Assembly: GCF_026240095.1 (NCBI RefSeq)
Contig: NZ_JAPIVG010000008.1
Span: 1 to 64,000 of the forward strand
Reading direction: 5' to 3'
Length of the DNA: 64,000 bases
From: Pedobacter sandarakinus
GTDB taxonomy: Bacteria > Bacteroidota > Bacteroidia > Sphingobacteriales > Sphingobacteriaceae
Shown here in pieces: positions 84 to 27,987 of the stretch (position 1 is the first letter of the stretch; each line of letters starts with the position of its first letter). The notes below the pieces were generated by a model. That model searched no databases and had not been told where the DNA came from. It saw only the letters and a program-made list of their open reading frames with translations. The position numbers and the translations under genes were made by a program.

Positions 84-3000
84 ATGCAAAAACCCGTTAA
101 AATACTTCAAGCATCCGCAGGTTCTGGTAAAACCTTCAGCTTGGCAGCTCATTATCTCACATTATTATTTAGCGGAGATAACAAATACAGGGAAATTTTA
201 GCGGTTACTTTTACCAATAAGGCTACCGAAGAAATGAAAACCCGTATTTTAGAGGTTTTACTCGGTTTTGCCAAAGGTGATGTTTCTAAAAAAACAGACG
301 ACTACAGGCAACTTGTTTTAGCAGCTCATCCGCAACTAAACACGCAAACATTAAAGCTAAAGGCTGATAAAATTTACCGAAAAATCCTGCATGATTACAG
401 TCGTTTCTCTGTAAGCACCATCGACGGTTTTGTGCAAAAAGTAATTCGTGGTTTTGCTTTTGAGCTAGGTTTAGATAGTGGGTACAGCCTGGAAATGAAC
501 ACTGAAAAGGTAAAGAACGAACTAACTGCCAAGCTAGAAAAATTACTAGATGAAAAGGATAATCTATTGCAATGGGTAGTTGAGCTGGCTTTAGATCGAA
601 TTAGCAACAATAAATCTTGGAATTACAATACAGAACTTCTCAAGTTGGTTGGTGAAGTTTTTAAAGATCAGTTTAAAGATTTTGAGACTGCAGTAGAGCA
701 TTTTGGCACAGAAAACACCGATGAGGTTTTCAAAAAGTATATTGATTTTTCGAAAAATTATATAAAAAAATTTGAGGCAGATTTAACTGAACTTGCCGAG
801 ACCGCTTTTGGCATTATTGAGGTTAGTGGTTTCGGCATTGAAGATTTCAAAGGCAAAAGTCGTTCGCCTCTGCTCAAGTTCAATAGCATCATCTATGGAA
901 ATTTTAACGACGTAGAAAAAGTATTAAAGCTAATGGATGATGAAGAGAATTGGTTCCCGAAAGGGAAAAGTAATGAACTTTACCAGGACATCAATCCCAT
1001 TTTACATCAGTTAAGCGCAATTTACAACACCGGCATCGCCGATTATATTTTAGCTAAAGCATTTATTAAAAATGGGTATTTTTTGAGATTGATGCAGGAA
1101 ATTGCCGTGCTACTGGCAGCCTATCGCGATGAAAATGAAACGCTCCTTATCAGCGATGCGCAAAAATTGCTCAACGGAATTGCCGAAGATGCCGGAGAAA
1201 ACCCAAGTTTTATCTGGGAGAAGATGGGCAACAAATATCGAAATTTTCTTTTTGATGAATTTCAAGATACCTCTGCCAATCAATGGAATAGTTTCAAAGC
1301 CTTGGTAAGCAATGCTATCTCGGTACATGACGGCAAATTGCACGATCATTTAATTGTGGGCGATGCCAAACAGTCTATTTACCGTTGGCGAGATGGCGAT
1401 TATAAACTGCTGCACCAAAAAGCCATGGCAGATTTAGGGGAGCATAACGCCTTCGCCGATCAGCTGGAAGAAAATTACCGGAGTACAGAGGAAGTTATCA
1501 AGTTTAATAACAACCTGTACCCGAGATTGGCTAAGCTATTGCAAAATAAAATCAACGGGGAAATACCTGCTGATGATGAATTGCTGAACAGTTTTTGGAA
1601 CGATAAACGCAATCAATACACAGATATTATTACCAAGATTTACGATGGAGTAGCTCAAAATAAACATTCAAAAACGACCAATGGTGGCATCATTAAAATA
1701 AAAAAAATAAACTTTGATAAGCCGAAAGCATCCGCTGATGGTTTAGTTGAAAATATAGCTTCAGATATTGAGCCCGACAATAAAAAAGAAGCTGCCCTAA
1801 ACGAAATGCTAAAAGAAGTAAATCTTTTGCTCAACGAAAAAGGATATCAGCAACGGGAGATTGGTGTTTTGGTTCGTTCTAATGCAGAAGCGACCGAAGT
1901 AGTAAACGCGTTAATGGCCGGAGGTTTAGATGTGATATCAGGCGAAGCCTTAAAAATTGCCAGCAGCACAGCCATCAAACTCATTGTTAATGTGCTAAAA
2001 CTATTAGTGGTTAGTCCGGCAAATTCTGCTTTGTATAAGGCAAATTGTATTGCCCTATATGCACAGTTGCACGAAAAAGCAATCAACGGAGATGATTATT
2101 TTGCATTAAAAGAAACACCAATTGAAAACCTTAAACACGTTCTACCAAGTAATTTTTGCGAAAATTATCGTACATGGTTAGGTTTACCTTTATCGGCTTT
2201 AATCGAAAATATCATCACTGCGTTCGGCTTAGATCAATATCAAAAACACAACATTAACCCATTTCTACCATATCTTTTAGCTTTTAGAGATTTAACCAAC
2301 AAAGCATCCCGACAGGGCGAAAAAGGAATTTCTGCTTTTTTAAATTGGTGGGAGGAGGAAGGGCACAATAAAAACCTACCCTCGCCAGAAACAGCTAATG
2401 CCATACAGGTAATGACCATTCATAAATCTAAAGGTTTAGCATTTAGGGCTGTTTTTATTCCTTTTTGCGACTGGCCTTTGGGCGGCAGACCCAATAGTAC
2501 ATTTTGGGTTCCAATGGACAATACACCTTATGCAGATTTACAAAGCATTCCATTACAATTTACCAGTCAGCTTAAAGGCTCTAGCGTAACAAAATATTAT
2601 TTAGAAGAGTTGTTAATGAACTATATGGATGCTTTAAATAGTTTGTATGTTGCTACTACGAGAGCGAAAGATTACATTTATATCTCATTCCCTGGAAAGA
2701 AAAAACCATCTTTGAGCCATGTTGGCGATGCCGTTTTTGATGCTTTTGCAGAAGACTTTGAAAATTCAGACGAAATTCAAATCGGCACTTTTTCTGATAA
2801 AGGTGATGGCGTAGAAAATTTCGATACGCTCAATTTAGCTGTTTATCCAACCACTTCTCGCTTAGAGGAAGTTTACCAAGAAACTGAAAACCGACCGCAA
2901 AAATACATCGATAACATTACCAAATCGGGAATAAAAGGTAGCAACCTGCACGCTATCTTAGCAGAGGTAAACAATGTTGATGAAGTAGATAGCGCACTAG

Positions 3001-3347
3001 ATCGGTTGGTTTTAGAAGGTTTAATTTTGGAAGATGAAAGAGCTGATTATTTACAGCAAGTTGCAGCGGTTTTGTCGCACCCGGAATTGAGTGCTTTATT
3101 GAGCCAAAATGCCAACCAGATCAACGAAAAATCTATTATAGGCACTGATGGTAAAACCTACCGGCCAGATAAATTGGTGCTCAACGGCAAGCAAGTCTCC
3201 ATCATCGATTACAAGTTTACTGCCGAAGAAAGCCAAAATCATGTAGCACAAATAGTGAATTATAAAAGTTTGATAGAAGCAATGGGTTATGAAAATGTAA
3301 AACCGTATTTATTTTATGCTTCGTTAAAGAAATTAAAAGCAGTGTAG
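84..3347 (+). CDS. AddA/RecB-like UvrD-family helicase with C-terminal nuclease domain
   Basis: Predicted ATP-dependent superfamily 1A helicase-nuclease for processing double-strand DNA ends, 1087 aa. The Walker A motif ASAGSGKT lies near residue 10. The Walker B/motif II FDEFQDTS is at about 390-397. HKSKGLAF (about 780) and VATTRAKDY are late UvrD motifs. A PD-(D/E)XK nuclease signature ends in IIDYK at about 1040-1044. The start ATG is only a few residues before Walker A, as is normal for this family. The next gene on the same strand, 152 nt downstream, encodes a second large PD-(D/E)XK nuclease. Together they resemble the two-nuclease AddAB complex rather than RecBCD. That pairing is inferred from order and domains; the recognition sequence and partner were not tested. 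Confidence 0.9.
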   Translation: MQKPVKILQASAGSGKTFSLAAHYLTLLFSGDNKYREILAVTFTNKATEEMKTRILEVLLGFAKGDVSKKTDDYRQLVLAAHPQLNTQTLKLKADKIYRKILHDYSRFSVSTIDGFVQKVIRGFAFELGLDSGYSLEMNTEKVKNELTAKLEKLLDEKDNLLQWVVELALDRISNNKSWNYNTELLKLVGEVFKDQFKDFETAVEHFGTENTDEVFKKYIDFSKNYIKKFEADLTELAETAFGIIEVSGFGIEDFKGKSRSPLLKFNSIIYGNFNDVEKVLKLMDDEENWFPKGKSNELYQDINPILHQLSAIYNTGIADYILAKAFIKNGYFLRLMQEIAVLLAAYRDENETLLISDAQKLLNGIAEDAGENPSFIWEKMGNKYRNFLFDEFQDTSANQWNSFKALVSNAISVHDGKLHDHLIVGDAKQSIYRWRDGDYKLLHQKAMADLGEHNAFADQLEENYRSTEEVIKFNNNLYPRLAKLLQNKINGEIPADDELLNSFWNDKRNQYTDIITKIYDGVAQNKHSKTTNGGIIKIKKINFDKPKASADGLVENIASDIEPDNKKEAALNEMLKEVNLLLNEKGYQQREIGVLVRSNAEATEVVNALMAGGLDVISGEALKIASSTAIKLIVNVLKLLVVSPANSALYKANCIALYAQLHEKAINGDDYFALKETPIENLKHVLPSNFCENYRTWLGLPLSALIENIITAFGLDQYQKHNINPFLPYLLAFRDLTNKASRQGEKGISAFLNWWEEEGHNKNLPSPETANAIQVMTIHKSKGLAFRAVFIPFCDWPLGGRPNSTFWVPMDNTPYADLQSIPLQFTSQLKGSSVTKYYLEELLMNYMDALNSLYVATTRAKDYIYISFPGKKKPSLSHVGDAVFDAFAEDFENSDEIQIGTFSDKGDGVENFDTLNLAVYPTTSRLEEVYQETENRPQKYIDNITKSGIKGSNLHAILAEVNNVDEVDSALDRLVLEGLILEDERADYLQQVAAVLSHPELSALLSQNANQINEKSIIGTDGKTYRPDKLVLNGKQVSIIDYKFTAEESQNHVAQIVNYKSLIEAMGYENVKPYLFYASLKKLKAV

Positions 3348-3499: not shown

Positions 3500-6376
3500 A
3501 TGACCCCATTTTTAAAAGAAGTTGCCGAAGATTTAGTAGCCAAGTTTGGCCAAAACTTGCAAGATTGTGCCATTGTTTTTAACAACAAGCGCCCTGTAGC
3601 ATACCTGCAAAAGCATTTGGCAGATATTTATAAAAAACCATTTTGGAGCCCTTCATTGTTTACTGTACAAGAGTTTTTTGCAGAAGCAACCAGTTTAAAA
3701 ATCGCCGATCATTACACGCAGTTTTTTACGCTCTACGACTGCTACATCGACCTTTTAAAAAAAGAAGGCTTAGAAAAACTACCATCAATTGCTAAGTTTC
3801 ATAACATTGCCCGCATCATTCTAGGAGATTTCACACAAATTGATAACGACTTGGTAGACTCTGATAGATTGTTTACCGAATTGGAAGATATCGCGGTCAT
3901 CAATCAACAATTTGATTTCTTAACTGCAGAGCAAAAGGAATTTCTATCGCAATTTTGGCAATCATATTCAGAAGGCAAGTACAAAAAGCAGCAGGAACTT
4001 TTTATAAAAATGTGGCACCGAATGCCTGTCTTGTATCGCAATTTTCATCAAAGGCTATCAGACAATGGCTTTACCACAATGGCAAGGCTATATAAAAACA
4101 TCGCCTATGGCAACAACGACATCGATTTTACCACAAAATATGTGGGAGGTAAACTTGTTTTTATAGGCTTTAACGCACTTAGCAAATCTGAAGCTAGAGC
4201 ATTTAAACGCTGGCAAGAAGAAGAAAAGGCCATCTTTTATTTTGATACAGACAGTTATTATTTGGAAGATGAAATGCAAGAGGCCGGACTTTTTCTCCGT
4301 AGAAATCTGAACCAGATTGGCTTGAAGAATCAGCTTGAAGGTGCCTCGAGCAATATCAAATCTACGCCACGCGATGTTAACGTTTACAAAGTGCAGGGGC
4401 AAACCGCACAAGCAAAAATTATAAACGAGCTTTTGGCTAATGAAAAAGAGCGAATATTAAGCCAACAGGAGGTGAATACTGCAATCATCCTTGCAGATGA
4501 AAGTTTGTTGATCCCGGTTTTGCAAACTATCCCAGCAAAAGTAGAAGGCAAAAAACTAGATGTGAACATCACAATGGGCTTTGGACTTATCAACTCCTCG
4601 CTATATGGTTTGGCAGACTTGTGGTTAAGCGTACAGGCAGAAGTCAATGGAAAAAAAACTATTCAGTACCAAACCGCAATTGCCTTTTTATCGCACCCTT
4701 TAATTGGAGTTAGCGATGTAATGCGACCAAAAATCATCGATGCTTTAATTAAAGAGCAGTTGATAGAAATTCCATACGGGCGTTTAACTAGGCAGGGTGG
4801 CCTTTTCGCTAGCTTTTTCGAACCTATAACATCATCCGCCGATGCGGTAAAAAAATTGATTGAGGTATTAGACTACGTTTTACAACGTGAACTAGCTGCC
4901 AGAAAACTGAAAAAAATAGATGCAGAACTGTTTGGCAAGACCATGCAAGAGCTGAACAGACTGCAAGATACACTTCAACACCACATTAACAAATATCAGC
5001 AAGATATCGAATTAACTTTTGTGCTATCGCTCATACAAAAATCGCTTGGCGCAATTGCGGTTCCACTAGAAGGTGATCCTTTAAACGGGATCCAAATAAT
5101 GGGGTTGTTAGAAAGTAGAAACTTGAATTTTGAACGGGTAATTATTTTAGGCTTAAATGAGGGTATTGTACCTCAGGCATCAACAGGCACAACATTTATT
5201 CCCGATAGTTTGCGGCGGGCCTATGGATTACCGGTTTTAGAAAATCAGGATGCGATCTCGGCATATATGTTTTATCGATTGATACAAAGATCAAAAAATA
5301 TACATTTTGTCTATAATGCTTTAACTGACGAGAGCAATAGTGGGGAGCCATCTCGATTTATTAAACAGTTGGAATACGAAAGTGGCTTTAATTTTCATCA
5401 TAGAGAATTGCAGCTTTCTGTAAAAACTGAGTTGAAAAGGGATGAAGTTGTGGTGAAATCTGCAAAGGTACAGCAGGTGCTAAACAAGTATTTATCTGGT
5501 CAGAAATACCTCTCTGCATCGGCCTTAACTACCTATATTGCAAACCCAATAGATTTCTTTTATAAGTACGTAGCCGGAATTGAAGAGCCAAAAGAAGTAG
5601 AAGAAACCGTTGAAGCATACAAAGTTGGTTTGATATTGCATGATGTAATGGAGCAGTTTTATGCTCAATTAAAAGCTGTTGATCCAGAAATTACTACCGA
5701 ACGCATTAGGGAAAAAAGGACTGATATTCCGACATTAATTATGCAGGGTTTTGCTCAAGTTTTATATGAGAATAGAAATGTTCAGGTGAACCTTAATGGC
5801 ATGCAAAAAGTTATTTATGCTATCGTGCTAGAATACGTAAATATTATTTTAAAGCAAGATGCAGAAGATGCACCTTTCACTTTAATTGGTTTGGAGCAAA
5901 AAGGAAATGCAAGCTTTAATTTCGAAGCTAATGGGAAACAGCAACAGGTAAAACTTTATGGCATTATAGATCGGGTTGACTTGAAAAATGGTGTATACAG
6001 AATTGTTGATTATAAAACAGGTAGCGACAAACTAAAATATTCATCTATTGAAGAATGTTTTGATACCGACTGCGGAAATATCAATAAAGCATTGGTGCAA
6101 ACATTATTTTATACGCATGTTTACGAGCAGATTTCCAAAAACGAAACTGTTGAGCCTAATCTCTATATTGTTAAAACGATGAGCAAAGAGGGCATTACCT
6201 TCACCGGCAAAAATGGTGTGTTAAAAGATGCTTTTTTAGCATCAGAGAAAATGTTGTTTTTGCAAGCGCTAAGAGAGAAGTTAAAAGAATTGTTCGATTA
6301 TTCTATCCCTTTTAGAGCCAGCCAGGTGCCAGGTAATTATGTGTATTCTATCTATACTACATTGTTTGGGAGGTAG
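3500..6376 (+). CDS. AddB-like PD-(D/E)XK nuclease family protein
   Basis: 958-aa protein with an inactive-helicase-like body and a C-terminal RecB-family nuclease domain. The nuclease signature VYRIVDYKTG has catalytic Asp837 and Lys839, and SASALTTYIANPIDFFYKYV in the preceding region is typical of AddB/Cas4-like nucleases. The N-terminus lacks a clear Walker A loop, unlike its upstream partner, which fits an AddB role as the scanning and structural subunit. It follows the AddA-like gene on the same strand and is probably co-expressed. The 3466-3499 leader contains degenerate TCTCAYAT-like repeats ending at the ATG. Family assignment is solid; the AddB role is inferred from context. Confidence 0.85.
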   Translation: MTPFLKEVAEDLVAKFGQNLQDCAIVFNNKRPVAYLQKHLADIYKKPFWSPSLFTVQEFFAEATSLKIADHYTQFFTLYDCYIDLLKKEGLEKLPSIAKFHNIARIILGDFTQIDNDLVDSDRLFTELEDIAVINQQFDFLTAEQKEFLSQFWQSYSEGKYKKQQELFIKMWHRMPVLYRNFHQRLSDNGFTTMARLYKNIAYGNNDIDFTTKYVGGKLVFIGFNALSKSEARAFKRWQEEEKAIFYFDTDSYYLEDEMQEAGLFLRRNLNQIGLKNQLEGASSNIKSTPRDVNVYKVQGQTAQAKIINELLANEKERILSQQEVNTAIILADESLLIPVLQTIPAKVEGKKLDVNITMGFGLINSSLYGLADLWLSVQAEVNGKKTIQYQTAIAFLSHPLIGVSDVMRPKIIDALIKEQLIEIPYGRLTRQGGLFASFFEPITSSADAVKKLIEVLDYVLQRELAARKLKKIDAELFGKTMQELNRLQDTLQHHINKYQQDIELTFVLSLIQKSLGAIAVPLEGDPLNGIQIMGLLESRNLNFERVIILGLNEGIVPQASTGTTFIPDSLRRAYGLPVLENQDAISAYMFYRLIQRSKNIHFVYNALTDESNSGEPSRFIKQLEYESGFNFHHRELQLSVKTELKRDEVVVKSAKVQQVLNKYLSGQKYLSASALTTYIANPIDFFYKYVAGIEEPKEVEETVEAYKVGLILHDVMEQFYAQLKAVDPEITTERIREKRTDIPTLIMQGFAQVLYENRNVQVNLNGMQKVIYAIVLEYVNIILKQDAEDAPFTLIGLEQKGNASFNFEANGKQQQVKLYGIIDRVDLKNGVYRIVDYKTGSDKLKYSSIEECFDTDCGNINKALVQTLFYTHVYEQISKNETVEPNLYIVKTMSKEGITFTGKNGVLKDAFLASEKMLFLQALREKLKELFDYSIPFRASQVPGNYVYSIYTTLFGR

Positions 6377-6386
6377 ATTAGTTTGT

Positions 6387-6396
6387 GGCTAAAGCC
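6387..6396. repeat. Inverted copy of the array core hairpin
   Basis: GGCTAAAGCC is the reverse complement of the GGCTTTAGCC core that recurs through the adjacent array. It lies just after the AddB-like stop codon and is followed by a short T-run. It can pair with the first array hairpin at 6420-6433 and might also serve as a weak terminator. Confidence 0.5.
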
Positions 6397-6419
6397 TTTT
6401 TGATTTTGTTTCTAGTTCG

Positions 6420-7752
6420 TTGGCTTTAGCCAATGGCAATGAATACCTACCAACCGCTGTAAATACAACTGCACCATCCATTTATTGGCCGCCTGGCTTT
6501 AGCCGACGGAAAAAAATATATCCTCTTATTGGGTTTAGCCAAACAAAACCTGTTTGTTTCAACCAACGGCAATGAATACCCACTAACCGCTTTGAAAACA
6601 TCTGCACCATCCATTTATTGGCCGTCTGGTTTTAGCCGACGGAATAAAAAAATATATCCTTATATTGGCTTTAGCCATATAAAACCTGTTTGTTTCAATC
6701 AACGGCAATGAACACCCACCAACCGCTGTAAATACACCTGCACCATCTATATATTGCCCGTCTGGCTTTAGCCGACGGAAAAAAAATATATCCTTATATT
6801 GGCTTTAGCCAAACAAAACCTGTTTGTTTGAACCAACGGCAATGAATACCAACCAACCGCTGTAAAAACACCTGCAACATCCATTTATTGGCAGCCTGGC
6901 TTTAGCCGACGGAAAAAATAAATCCTTATATTGGTTTTAGCCATAGCAAAAGTGTTTGTTTCAACCAACGGCAATGAACACCCATCAACCCCTGTAAATA
7001 CGCCTGCACCATCCATTTATTGGCCGTCTGGCTTTAGCCGACGGAATAAAAAAATATTTCCTTATATTGGCTTTAGCCAAACAAAACCCGTTGATTTCAA
7101 CCAGCGGCAATGAATACCTACCAACCGCTGTAAAAACACCTGCAACATCCATTTATTGGCAGCCTGGCTTTAGCCGACGGAATAAAAAAATATATCCATA
7201 TATTGGCCTTATCCATACAAAACCTGTTTGTTTCAACCAGCGGCAATGAATACCTACCAACCGCTGTAAAAACACCTGCAACATCCATTTATTGGCAGCC
7301 TGGCTTTAGCCGACGGAATAAAAAAATATATCCATATATTGGCCTTATCCATACAAAACCTGTTTGTTTCAACCAGCGGCAATGAATACCTACCAACCGC
7401 TGTAAAAACACCTGCACCATCCATTTATTGGCCGTCTGGCTTTAGCCGACGGAAAAAATAAATCCTTATATGGGCTTTAGCCATATAAAACCTGTTTGTT
7501 TCAACCAACGACAATGAATACCTACAAACCGCTGTAACTACGCCTGCACCATCCATTTATTGGCAGCCTGGCTTTAGCCGACGGAAAAAAAATATATCCT
7601 TATATTGGCTTTAGCCAAACAAAACCTGTTTGTTTCAACCAACGGCAATGAACACCCACCAACCGCTATAAATACGCCTGCACCATCCATTTATTGGCCG
7701 TCTGGCTTTAGCCGACGAAAAAAAATAAATCCTTATATTGGCCTTAGCCAAA
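6420..7752 (+). repeat. Tandem array of ten ~135-bp units with paired REP-like hairpins
   Basis: Ten direct units bounded by eleven copies of a TTGGCTTTAGCCAA-type palindrome, at 6420, 6529, 6665, 6799, 6931, 7067, 7203, 7339, 7471, 7605 and 7739. Spacing is 132-136 bp, except 109 for the first unit, which has a deletion. Each unit also has a second hairpin, CCGTC-T-GGC-TTTA-GCC-GACGG, with a bulged T and a TTTA loop; about half carry a CAGCC variant in the left arm. Units at about 7067-7339 are nearly identical, which points to recent duplication. The ~60-codon reading frames across units are not credible genes: they overlap one another and the unit length is not a multiple of three. The array ends about 10 nt before a Y1 transposase gene. 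Confidence 0.9.
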
Positions 7753-7761
7753 CTTTAAAAT

Positions 7762-8196
7762 ATGTCATATGTAAAAATTTGGGTTCACTTGGTGTTCTCA
7801 ACTAAAAACAGACATCCCTATTTAACAAAAACCATCCGCTATAAACTTCAAAATCATATCATAGAAAATTGTAAACAGAAATCAATTTTCCTTAAAACTG
7901 TTAATGGTTATACAGAACATTTGCACTGTTTAATATCTGTAGGAAAAGAACAAAGCATAGCTAAAATAGCACAGCTAATTAAAGGTGAATCAGCCTATTG
8001 GATAAACAAAAATAAACTAACCGATGAAACCTTTATGTGGCAAGATGATTATTTCGCAGTTTCAGTAAGCGAATCCAATTTAGAGATTGTTAACAACTAC
8101 ATCAAATACCAGGAAAACCATCATCACAAAAAATCATTTGAAGAAGAGGTAGAAGAGTTCACCGATAAATATAAATTCGAAATAAGAAAAGAATAA
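7762..8196 (+). CDS. IS200/REP-associated (RAYT-like) Y1 transposase
   Basis: 144-aa HUH single-strand transposase of the Y1_Tnp family. The HUH motif is EHLHCLI (His53 and His55). The likely catalytic tyrosine is Tyr113 in NNYIKYQENHH. The N-terminal SYVKIWVHLVFSTKNR is typical of Bacteroidetes family members. No second gene (tnpB) and no recognisable right end were seen: the next gene starts 1 nt after the stop. The upstream side is a long array of small palindromes. This layout matches REP-associated tyrosine transposases, which are usually single-copy and act on REP hairpins rather than moving as an intact IS. The frame is open and appears intact. Activity on the neighbouring hairpins is inference. 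Confidence 0.85.
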   Translation: MSYVKIWVHLVFSTKNRHPYLTKTIRYKLQNHIIENCKQKSIFLKTVNGYTEHLHCLISVGKEQSIAKIAQLIKGESAYWINKNKLTDETFMWQDDYFAVSVSESNLEIVNNYIKYQENHHHKKSFEEEVEEFTDKYKFEIRKE

Positions 8197-8197
8197 A

Positions 8198-8755
8198 ATG
8201 CTAACCCTCAATTTTACAAAATTTCCAAGCCTCGAAACCCAGCGCCTTATTTTACGAGAGCATAAGTTAACTGATGCTGAAACATTATTTGCCATGCGCA
8301 CAAATGAAACGGTAATGAAATATATCGACCGTGAACGGCCAAAGGATTTGATGGAAATAAAAACTTTCATCAGCATCCTTAACGATGGTTTCGAAAATGG
8401 CGACAACCTTGCCTGGGTAATTGCGCTGAAAGAAAACCCAAACGAAATGATTGGCTCCATTGGTTACTGGCGAACAGATTATGCAAACCATAGGGCAGAA
8501 ATTGGATACATGCTTCACCCAGATTATTGGCGAGAGGGAATAATATCCGAAGCCTTAAAAAGAACGATAAATTTTGGTTTTGAAGAAATGAATTTGCACA
8601 CAATTAAGGCAAACATTAATGTAGAAAATGATGCATCAAGGCAAGTGCTTATCAAACATGGTTTCGTTAAAGAAGCTCATTTTAAGCAAGATTATTATTT
8701 TCGAGGGCGATTTTTAGACAGCGAAATCTATGGCTTAATTAATCCCCAACACTAG
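8198..8755 (+). CDS. GNAT family N-acetyltransferase (RimJ/RimL type)
   Basis: 185-aa acetyltransferase of the Acetyltransf_3 kind. The N-terminal ETQRLILREHKLTDAETLF is the usual opening of RimJ/RimL-like enzymes. EIGYMLHPDYWREGI with GIISEAL corresponds to the acetyl-CoA pyrophosphate-binding motif A. NINVENDASRQVLIKHGFV is the conserved C-terminal Asn...S..(V/L)L...GF motif. The substrate cannot be deduced; relatives acetylate ribosomal-protein N-termini, amino acids or antibiotics. The start lies 1 nt after the transposase stop, so the transposase sits tightly against this gene. Confidence 0.85.
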   Translation: MLTLNFTKFPSLETQRLILREHKLTDAETLFAMRTNETVMKYIDRERPKDLMEIKTFISILNDGFENGDNLAWVIALKENPNEMIGSIGYWRTDYANHRAEIGYMLHPDYWREGIISEALKRTINFGFEEMNLHTIKANINVENDASRQVLIKHGFVKEAHFKQDYYFRGRFLDSEIYGLINPQH

Positions 8756-19744: not shown

Positions 19745-19845
19745 TTACGCCCGTACTATAGCCCCAATTGAAATGGAAAGCCCACAGCCCAATTTTTCAT
19801 TGGGCGAGGACTTGCAATGGAAAGTGGGACTGCTGCAACAAATGT
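19745..19845 (+). repeat. Dispersed ~100-bp repeat, copy 3
   Basis: Contains CCCCAATTGAAATGGAAAGC at the left and GGAAAGTGGGACTGCTGCAAC at the right, matching the plus-orientation reading of the family also seen at 27726 and 35777. A CCCAATTTTTCATTGGG hairpin lies in the middle. Confidence 0.5.
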
Positions 19846-27626: not shown

Positions 27627-27987
27627 TCACAATTCATAATTATCGTTTAAAATCACAATATGTAATATTAAGATCTTAAATAATCAGGGTAGAAAACCAA
27701 TCTCACTCCTGGACCAAGGCTATTTTAAACCCGATTGAAGTGGAAATCCTTTTGCTTGAGATTGCTGCGTTCCTCGCAATGACGACCATGGCAAAAGATT
27801 GCAACAAAAAGCGGGGCTGAAACCCACCGAAGGATTACTGTAATTGATTTACAAAAAAATAAAACACGCCACCGTACTAACACCCCTTTAAAAGAGCGGG
27901 ACTAACCACAATACCGTTAGCCCTAAGTCTATCTAAGCGATCTTAAAACTAATACCTAATAACCTTCAACTTTTTTCTCATCAACTA
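27627..27987. other. Gene-free stretch before the ribosomal operon
   Basis: Holds the dispersed repeat at 27726-27819 and no credible frame. The remainder (27820-27987) shows nothing recognised apart from AT-rich promoter-proximal DNA. Confidence 0.5.
27726..27819 (+). repeat. Dispersed ~100-bp repeat, copy 4, with nested palindrome arm
   Basis: Starts AAACCCGATTGAAGTGGAAAT, ends AAGCGGGGCTG. Its interior contains ATTGCTGCGTTCCTCGCAATGA at 27763-27784, one arm of the inverted repeat seen at 3385-3442. Two repeat families are therefore nested here. Confidence 0.6.

Follow-up and report, generated by a model that had tools for sequence, protein, structure and literature searches.

A tandem array of foot-and-hairpin repeats beside a subclass 1.2 Y1 transposase gene of Pedobacter sandarakinus probably forms a REPtron-like cassette

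We analyzed a stretch of 64,000 nucleotides from Pedobacter sandarakinus (assembly GCF_026240095.1, contig NZ_JAPIVG010000008.1, positions 1 to 64,000; hereafter the window) and found a gene for a Y1/HUH single-strand DNA transposase-like protein of 144 aa (7762..8196, + strand; Pfam Y1_Tnp, E 7e-26) directly behind a tandem array of hairpin-bearing units (6430..7750, delimited by TRF and by the alpha hairpins described below). It is probable that the two form a REPtron-like cassette, in which a Y1 protein of TnpA_Y1 subclass 1.2 acts on hairpins with a 5' foot as single strands, and in which the repeats have been amplified locally and have partly decayed. Relatives across the phylum combine such a gene with hairpins dispersed over the genome, and this points to a new branch of the known 'transposase plus mobile hairpin' systems among enzymes that had been reported as hairpin-less.

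The cassette is preceded by two genes on the + strand, one for a UvrD-like helicase resembling AddA/RecB (84..3347; Pfam UvrD-helicase, E 1e-34) and one for an AddB-like PD-(D/E)XK nuclease (3500..6376; Pfam PDDEXK_1). It begins just past the stop codon of the latter, which is its left border, and its right border is a GNAT acetyltransferase gene (8198..8755, +; Pfam Acetyltransf_3, E 2e-33) that starts 1 nt past the stop codon of the Y1 gene. No tnpB-like ORF was found when the ORFs neighbouring the Y1 gene were checked, as an earlier note on this DNA, made from the sequence alone, had stated. Of the 36 sampled Pedobacter genomes, seven have the Y1 gene at this position beside AddB. Where same-genus genomes are devoid of the cassette, a short spacer comes after AddB, and next to it usually the GNAT gene or a pdhB-like gene; the stretch read there contains no such hairpins. 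Over its C-terminal 300 residues, the AddB-like protein shares 80-85% identity with the proteins of G005 and G025, both cassette-less at this locus, and only ~55% with those of the other cassette carriers, whereas the window Y1 protein shares 88% identity with its counterpart in the sister genome G007. Given this disagreement, the cassette may have had a history separate from that of the border gene.

TRF described the array (6430-7750) as 9.8 copies of a 136-bp period with 89% matches, and ten anchors of a hairpin that we call alpha are spaced by 132-136 bp, in agreement with the ten units of ~135 bp counted earlier. Each unit contains, in this order, alpha (gene sense), a second hairpin, D (gene sense), and beta (opposite strand). 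The two palindromes per unit of the earlier note correspond to alpha and D; the third site, beta, lies on the other strand and had not been listed. The array opens with an inverted D, which is the outermost hairpin (GGCTAAAGCC, 6385..6398, - strand) and has the same left edge in G007, and with an inverted beta, the first of the beta repeats (6418..6446, -), with the foot TTCATTGCC on the minus strand.

Alpha is a bulged hairpin, CCGTC-T-GGC-TTTA-GCC-GACGG, the form seen in copy 5 (7024..7044). The other copies, likewise on the + strand, are located at 6489..6509 (copy 1, with one lower-stem mismatch), 6622..6642 (2), 6758..6778 (3), 6892..6912 (4), 7160..7180 (6), 7296..7316 (7), 7432..7452 (8), 7564..7584 (9), and 7698..7718 (10), and in copies 4, 6, 7, and 9 the lower stem is broken. 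D has the sequence TTGGC-TTTA-GCCAA and is found on the + strand at 6530, 6666, 6800, 6932, 7068, 7204, 7340, 7472, and 7606; the last D (7738..7751, +) ends the array 10 nt ahead of the ATG at 7762, the distance that had been noted before. In most units, TATATTGG stands ahead of D (window 6525-7749). It is loosely similar to a Bacteroidota -7 promoter element (TAnnTTTG), and since this promoter-like sequence recurs ahead of D in most units, the array may hold repeated promoter-like sites. Beta consists of the foot TTCATTGCCG followed by a degenerate stem. Its nine internal copies have their feet at 6567, 6703, 6837, 6969, 7105, 7241, 7377, 7509, and 7643 on the minus strand, and in the copy at 7625..7652 (-), given here as an example, the foot is kept and the stem is degenerate.

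Alpha and beta have a common 5' foot, TTCATTGC, in place of which most alpha copies of this array carry ATTTATTGGC. Owing to the common foot, the array looks like a tandem series of inverted REP pairs (BIMEs), with alpha (+) and beta (-) in alternation. Two other identities of the hairpins were considered and rejected. The CGTC of alpha sits within the paired stem and leaves no unpaired tag, and alpha was therefore not filed as a CGTC-tagged REP (PMC3733652). As to intrinsic terminators, a T run follows the hairpin in Chryseobacterium and is absent in Pedobacter.

When the repeats were folded as single-stranded DNA, a good alpha copy such as copy 5 gave -7.3 kcal/mol (z -3.9), and the CAGCC variant of alpha, which accounts for four of the ten copies and has the broken lower stem, gave -2.7 kcal/mol. 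Beta of this genome folds at -1.5 kcal/mol, compared with -8.5 kcal/mol for the intact beta of relatives. Hence, the hairpins reported earlier are present but not all intact, as four alpha lower stems are broken and beta barely folds. Pairwise identity between units is 84-96%, the value of 96% being reached only by units 5 and 6 of the alignment, which are neighbours. As this applies to a single neighbouring pair, the recent amplification that had been proposed holds for part of the array only: judged from unit identities, most of the array is old and one step is recent. The system of this genome thus looks locally amplified and partly decayed.

The Y1 gene is intact, as previously noted, with 91 bits to Y1_Tnp and with both the HUH motif and the catalytic tyrosine (Tyr113) present. 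Its product contains the motifs EHLH, WQ, and YIKYQENHH, the last of which matches the signature Y-x3-Q-x2-HH of TnpA_Y1 subclass 1.2 and recurs in nearly all listed relatives of the protein. Subclass 1.2 has been described by Quentin et al. (2018; PMC6006769) as having the motif Y---Q--HH, a low copy number, and a range of Bacteroidetes and Cyanobacteria; according to the text of that study its members are generally devoid of typical IS200 terminal structures, and in Table 1 the entry for REPs is 'no'. The window protein agrees with this description in its signature, WQ motif, and length (144 aa, compared with about 148 aa) and also in copy number, as the genome has two divergent Y1 genes, the second 31% identical to the window gene, and the nearest named relatives at the locus belong to Pedobacter. 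The NCBIfam model transpos_IS200 recognized the window protein with 69.6 bits (cut-off 55). The NCBIfam RAYT model NF047646 (cut-off 80 bits) did not match it and scored three relatives at only 29-36 bits. The RAYT-type label given earlier does not fit in other respects either, as the Y-motif reads YIKYQENHH and not Y-x3-NP, and the foot is TTCATTGC and not GT[AG]G. One feature of RAYTs, the presence of REPs in both orientations around the gene, was nevertheless found: the 80 foot-hairpins at the 80 genes sampled below comprise 35 in gene sense and 45 in the opposite sense. By its sequence, the window protein is a subclass 1.2 TnpA_Y1 and not a RAYT. The predicted structure (pLDDT 85) was closest to the TnpA proteins of ISDra2 and IS608, and the E. 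coli RAYT 4er8 ranked 27th. Among close orthologues, dN/dS of the window gene was 0.06-0.11, indicating that the gene, compared with these orthologues, is under purifying selection.

The association between foot-hairpins and subclass 1.2 genes was examined at 80 loci carrying relatives of the window gene (54-89% identity). At 80 of 208 sites near the genes, the core TCATTG ran straight into a palindrome with 8 or more of 9 pairs matched; the same was true of none of 407 sites farther away (Fisher p 1e-43). Hairpin density was 1.14 per 250 bp just upstream of the genes compared with mostly 0.02-0.15 in the bins past 750 bp, and it was also raised 250-750 bp after the gene start; when only intergenic DNA was counted, the density was 5.3 per kb near the genes versus 1.3 per kb. 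Hairpin D lies close upstream of most of the genes, and hairpins adjoin subclass 1.2 genes in many Bacteroidota genera. The stems covary: 65 cells were altered on both sides, compared with 18.5 in shuffles, and 94% were paired, although the rows had been pre-chosen for pairing, which biases the paired share upward and the letter changes less so. In several species the gene-sense and opposite-sense stems differ, for example CCGTCCCATTCATGGGACGG versus CCGTCGGCTTCAGCCGACGG in Mucilaginibacter. The foot is TTCATTGC in the Pedobacter/Mucilaginibacter group and about ATCAATAG in Chryseobacterium. More distant relatives (G048, L041-L044) have GGGCTTTAGCCC-like hairpins around the gene, and in G048 the core GGCTTTAGCC occurs 34 times compared with 0 for its reversed control.

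To follow up the genome-wide search for the hairpins that the earlier note had proposed, we used the core GGCTTTAGCC, the whole unit, a sequence pattern, and a covariance model. Within this genome the unit occurs only at this locus, an outcome that the earlier note had named as counting against its reading, but sister genomes contain homologous hairpins at dispersed sites. The cassette contains 16 exact copies of GGCTTTAGCC, 15 in gene sense and one inverted at 6387-6396. Elsewhere in the genome there are 13, several of them apparently in coding sequence, and the reversed control also gave 13 genome-wide, so that only the array stands above chance and the core was rejected as a dispersed motif here. 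BLAST with the unit found the array and nothing elsewhere in this genome, and a few partial matches in relatives. The pattern and the covariance model likewise gave nothing outside the array in this genome, the model being one that fails to score even the decayed copies of the array.

In other genomes, the pattern ATTGCNGTYN{3,4}TTNANNNRACNG was found 40 (G007), 33 (G046), and 11 (G021) times, with 0 for the reversed control, and the covariance model gave 47, 41, and 22 hits, respectively. G007 and G046 helped to build the model, and in genomes that contributed rows the hits partly follow from that contribution; for G021, G008, G025, and G005, the pattern search and its control are free of this fault. 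Cognate hairpins are dispersed in G007, G021, G046, and G008 but absent outside the array in this genome. Within the genus, carriers of the gene have more hairpin copies than non-carriers (p 0.0005; p 0.002 when G007 is left out). The orthologue carriers G001, G027, and G031 have one or two model hits each, and G005, G025, and G030 have ~10 copies each and no intact close orthologue, which orphan copies would explain. In Chryseobacterium (G056) a ~65-nt module, ATCAATAG-hairpin-spacer-TTGGCTTTAGCCAAAAYTT, is dispersed with sharp outer edges, its foot and D being conserved and its spacer not, and in G046 many modules are inverted dimers. One REP site is common to G007, G025, and G008, with stems that differ and are still largely paired, and is absent in others. 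Base-exact insertion junctions were sought by cross-species comparison of the G007 array site and of one singlet site; no target site could be read, because the diverged intergenic flanks align too poorly.

These distributions bear on the alternative that the hairpins are a regulatory leader, controlling gene expression, for example through autoregulation by the Y1 protein, with the array as a set of candidate binding sites and with mobility minor or absent. Such a role would agree with the position of D close upstream of most genes and here 10 nt from the start codon, with the recurrence of TATATTGG ahead of D in most units, and with the purifying selection on the gene. Against it stand the dozens of dispersed copies in G007, G046, G056, and G048 and the hairpins that lie downstream of the gene. 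We consider it unlikely that regulation is the whole explanation, but the two are not exclusive, and a regulatory role would be compatible with a REPtron-like cassette.

Tandem arrays recur beside subclass 1.2 genes. With a period of at least 40, TRF gave 31 array rows beside the genes versus 2 elsewhere (a single array may be reported in several rows that differ in period); the arrays are found at 21 of the 80 loci and their units are unrelated. The second subclass 1.2 gene of this genome has an array of a 206-bp unit in ~5-7 copies just upstream (L360 3576-5680, corresponding to G000:C30:127575-129679), with the hairpins CGACCCC-N4-GGGGTCG and TTATCCCTCYGGGATAA. The former occurs six times at this array and nowhere else in the genome, and the array, unrelated to that of the window, is confined to its own locus. 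A second array in G007, made of repeats like those of the window array and with a period of 122 (G007:C9:273900-274650, L261), is far from the Y1 gene; the stretch read there contains no Y1 gene, and the array is absent at the matching site of this genome. An ordinary minisatellite, i.e. a hairpin-rich intergenic stretch that grew by slippage next to an unrelated Y1 gene, would fit the single location of the unit in this genome and the partial degeneration of its hairpins. That reading is already disfavoured, and we regard it as quite improbable, as hairpins adjoin subclass 1.2 genes across many genera, arrays with unrelated units recur at the loci counted above, and the second gene of this genome has an array as well.

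It is very improbable that the cassette is a degenerate IS200/IS605-type element with lost ends, alpha and D being the former left and right ends, despite a protein nearest to IS200-type TnpA in sequence and predicted model, the same orientation of alpha and D, as in two ends, and the sharp-edged ~65-nt module of Chryseobacterium, since the gene is single copy at the same locus in 7/36 Pedobacter genomes with a dN/dS of 0.06-0.11, several near-identical copies with LE and RE hairpins were not found, there being no closely similar second copy, and the two putative ends are found together on one flank of the gene.

The proposed REPtron-like cassette shares much with the known REPtrons of class 2 RAYT/TnpAREP proteins (E. 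coli, Pseudomonas, Stenotrophomonas, and Marinomonas): a Y1/HUH gene that is single, syntenic, and subject to purifying selection, a conserved foot 5' of the hairpins, two oppositely oriented stem types, one of them bulged, that form BIME-like pairs, and tandem BIMEs. As in the Marinomonas REPtron (PMC8266576), repeats are concentrated beside the gene. The likeness to the RAYT/REP arrangement put forward in the earlier note thus stands, with foot and hairpin, inverted pairs, a single-copy syntenic gene, and dispersed copies in relatives, but its contrast between tandem and scattered elements was a false one: relatives show both, and tandem BIMEs as well as the concentration of REPs near RAYT genes were already known (PMC2817692, PMC8266576). 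Unlike REPtrons, the system has a protein that carries Y-x3-Q-x2-HH in place of Y-x3-NP and either misses the NCBIfam RAYT model or scores under its cut-off, the foot TTCATTGC in place of GT[AG]G, an extra hairpin D lacking this foot in each module, and, in this genome, no dispersed copies. The tandem units of oppositely oriented REPs recall E. coli BIME-2 arrays, although the sequence is unrelated, the foot is different, and the array adjoins the enzyme gene. With IS200/IS605 elements (IS608, ISDra2) the system shares the catalytic core and the predicted fold, and the foot 5' of the hairpin recalls a guide sequence, but IS ends flanking the gene, a tnpB, and a closely similar second copy are all lacking. 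The REP of Haemophilus influenzae has the same GGGCTTTAGCCC core behind a GTAG foot (PMC2817692).

The window protein resembles subclass 1.2 (PMC6006769) in signature motif, length, low copy number, and phylum (Bacteroidetes), and differs from its published description, where REPs are 'no', in that clear REP-like repeats flank many members. The published absence of REPs being an observation, the repeats extend the description of the subclass and membership is kept. In the open literature, subscription papers lying outside the search, we found no report of REPs for subclass 1.2; as far as this literature shows, REP-like repeats tied to subclass 1.2, with a foot other than GTAG, are new.

In the proposed mechanism, the Y1 protein would recognise short hairpins with a 5' foot as single-stranded DNA. 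By analogy with REPtrons (PMC8266576), it most likely binds the foot-hairpin and can cut nearby, and such activity would account for the foot, for the covariation of the stems, and for the dispersal. In other genomes the protein may have spread or maintained the hairpins as singlets and inverted pairs, and we infer that it is a domesticated transposase working on non-autonomous hairpins and not on an IS. Here, the unit of alpha, D, and inverted beta would have multiplied into a tandem series of ten, probably through slippage or inter-unit recombination eased by the hairpins, and nicking by the Y1 protein perhaps contributed. The array of this genome would then have partly decayed in place and not dispersed, with the gene still constrained relative to its orthologues. 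A broader reading, to which we give a limited chance, is that subclass 1.2 consists of phylum-wide domesticated HUH nucleases with their own non-GTAG hairpin systems, which act in cis to build and keep tandem arrays next to the gene that encodes them; both subclass 1.2 genes of this genome have private, mutually unrelated arrays. If this is true, local arrays would arise routinely from the action of the enzyme and not from slippage.

As subclass 1.2 had been described without IS ends and without REPs, no substrate had been known for its members, and the foot-plus-hairpin provides a concrete candidate substrate for each subclass 1.2 gene. The REPtron idea would extend to a second Y1 branch, in Bacteroidota and with a different foot. 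Sister genomes in which the repeats are dispersed, tandem, or absent would make the spread and decay of the repeats traceable. In the Rfam search, in which the array was without a match, two Flavo-1 sRNA matches above the gathering score were found elsewhere in the window, at 19756-19835 and 27723-27822.
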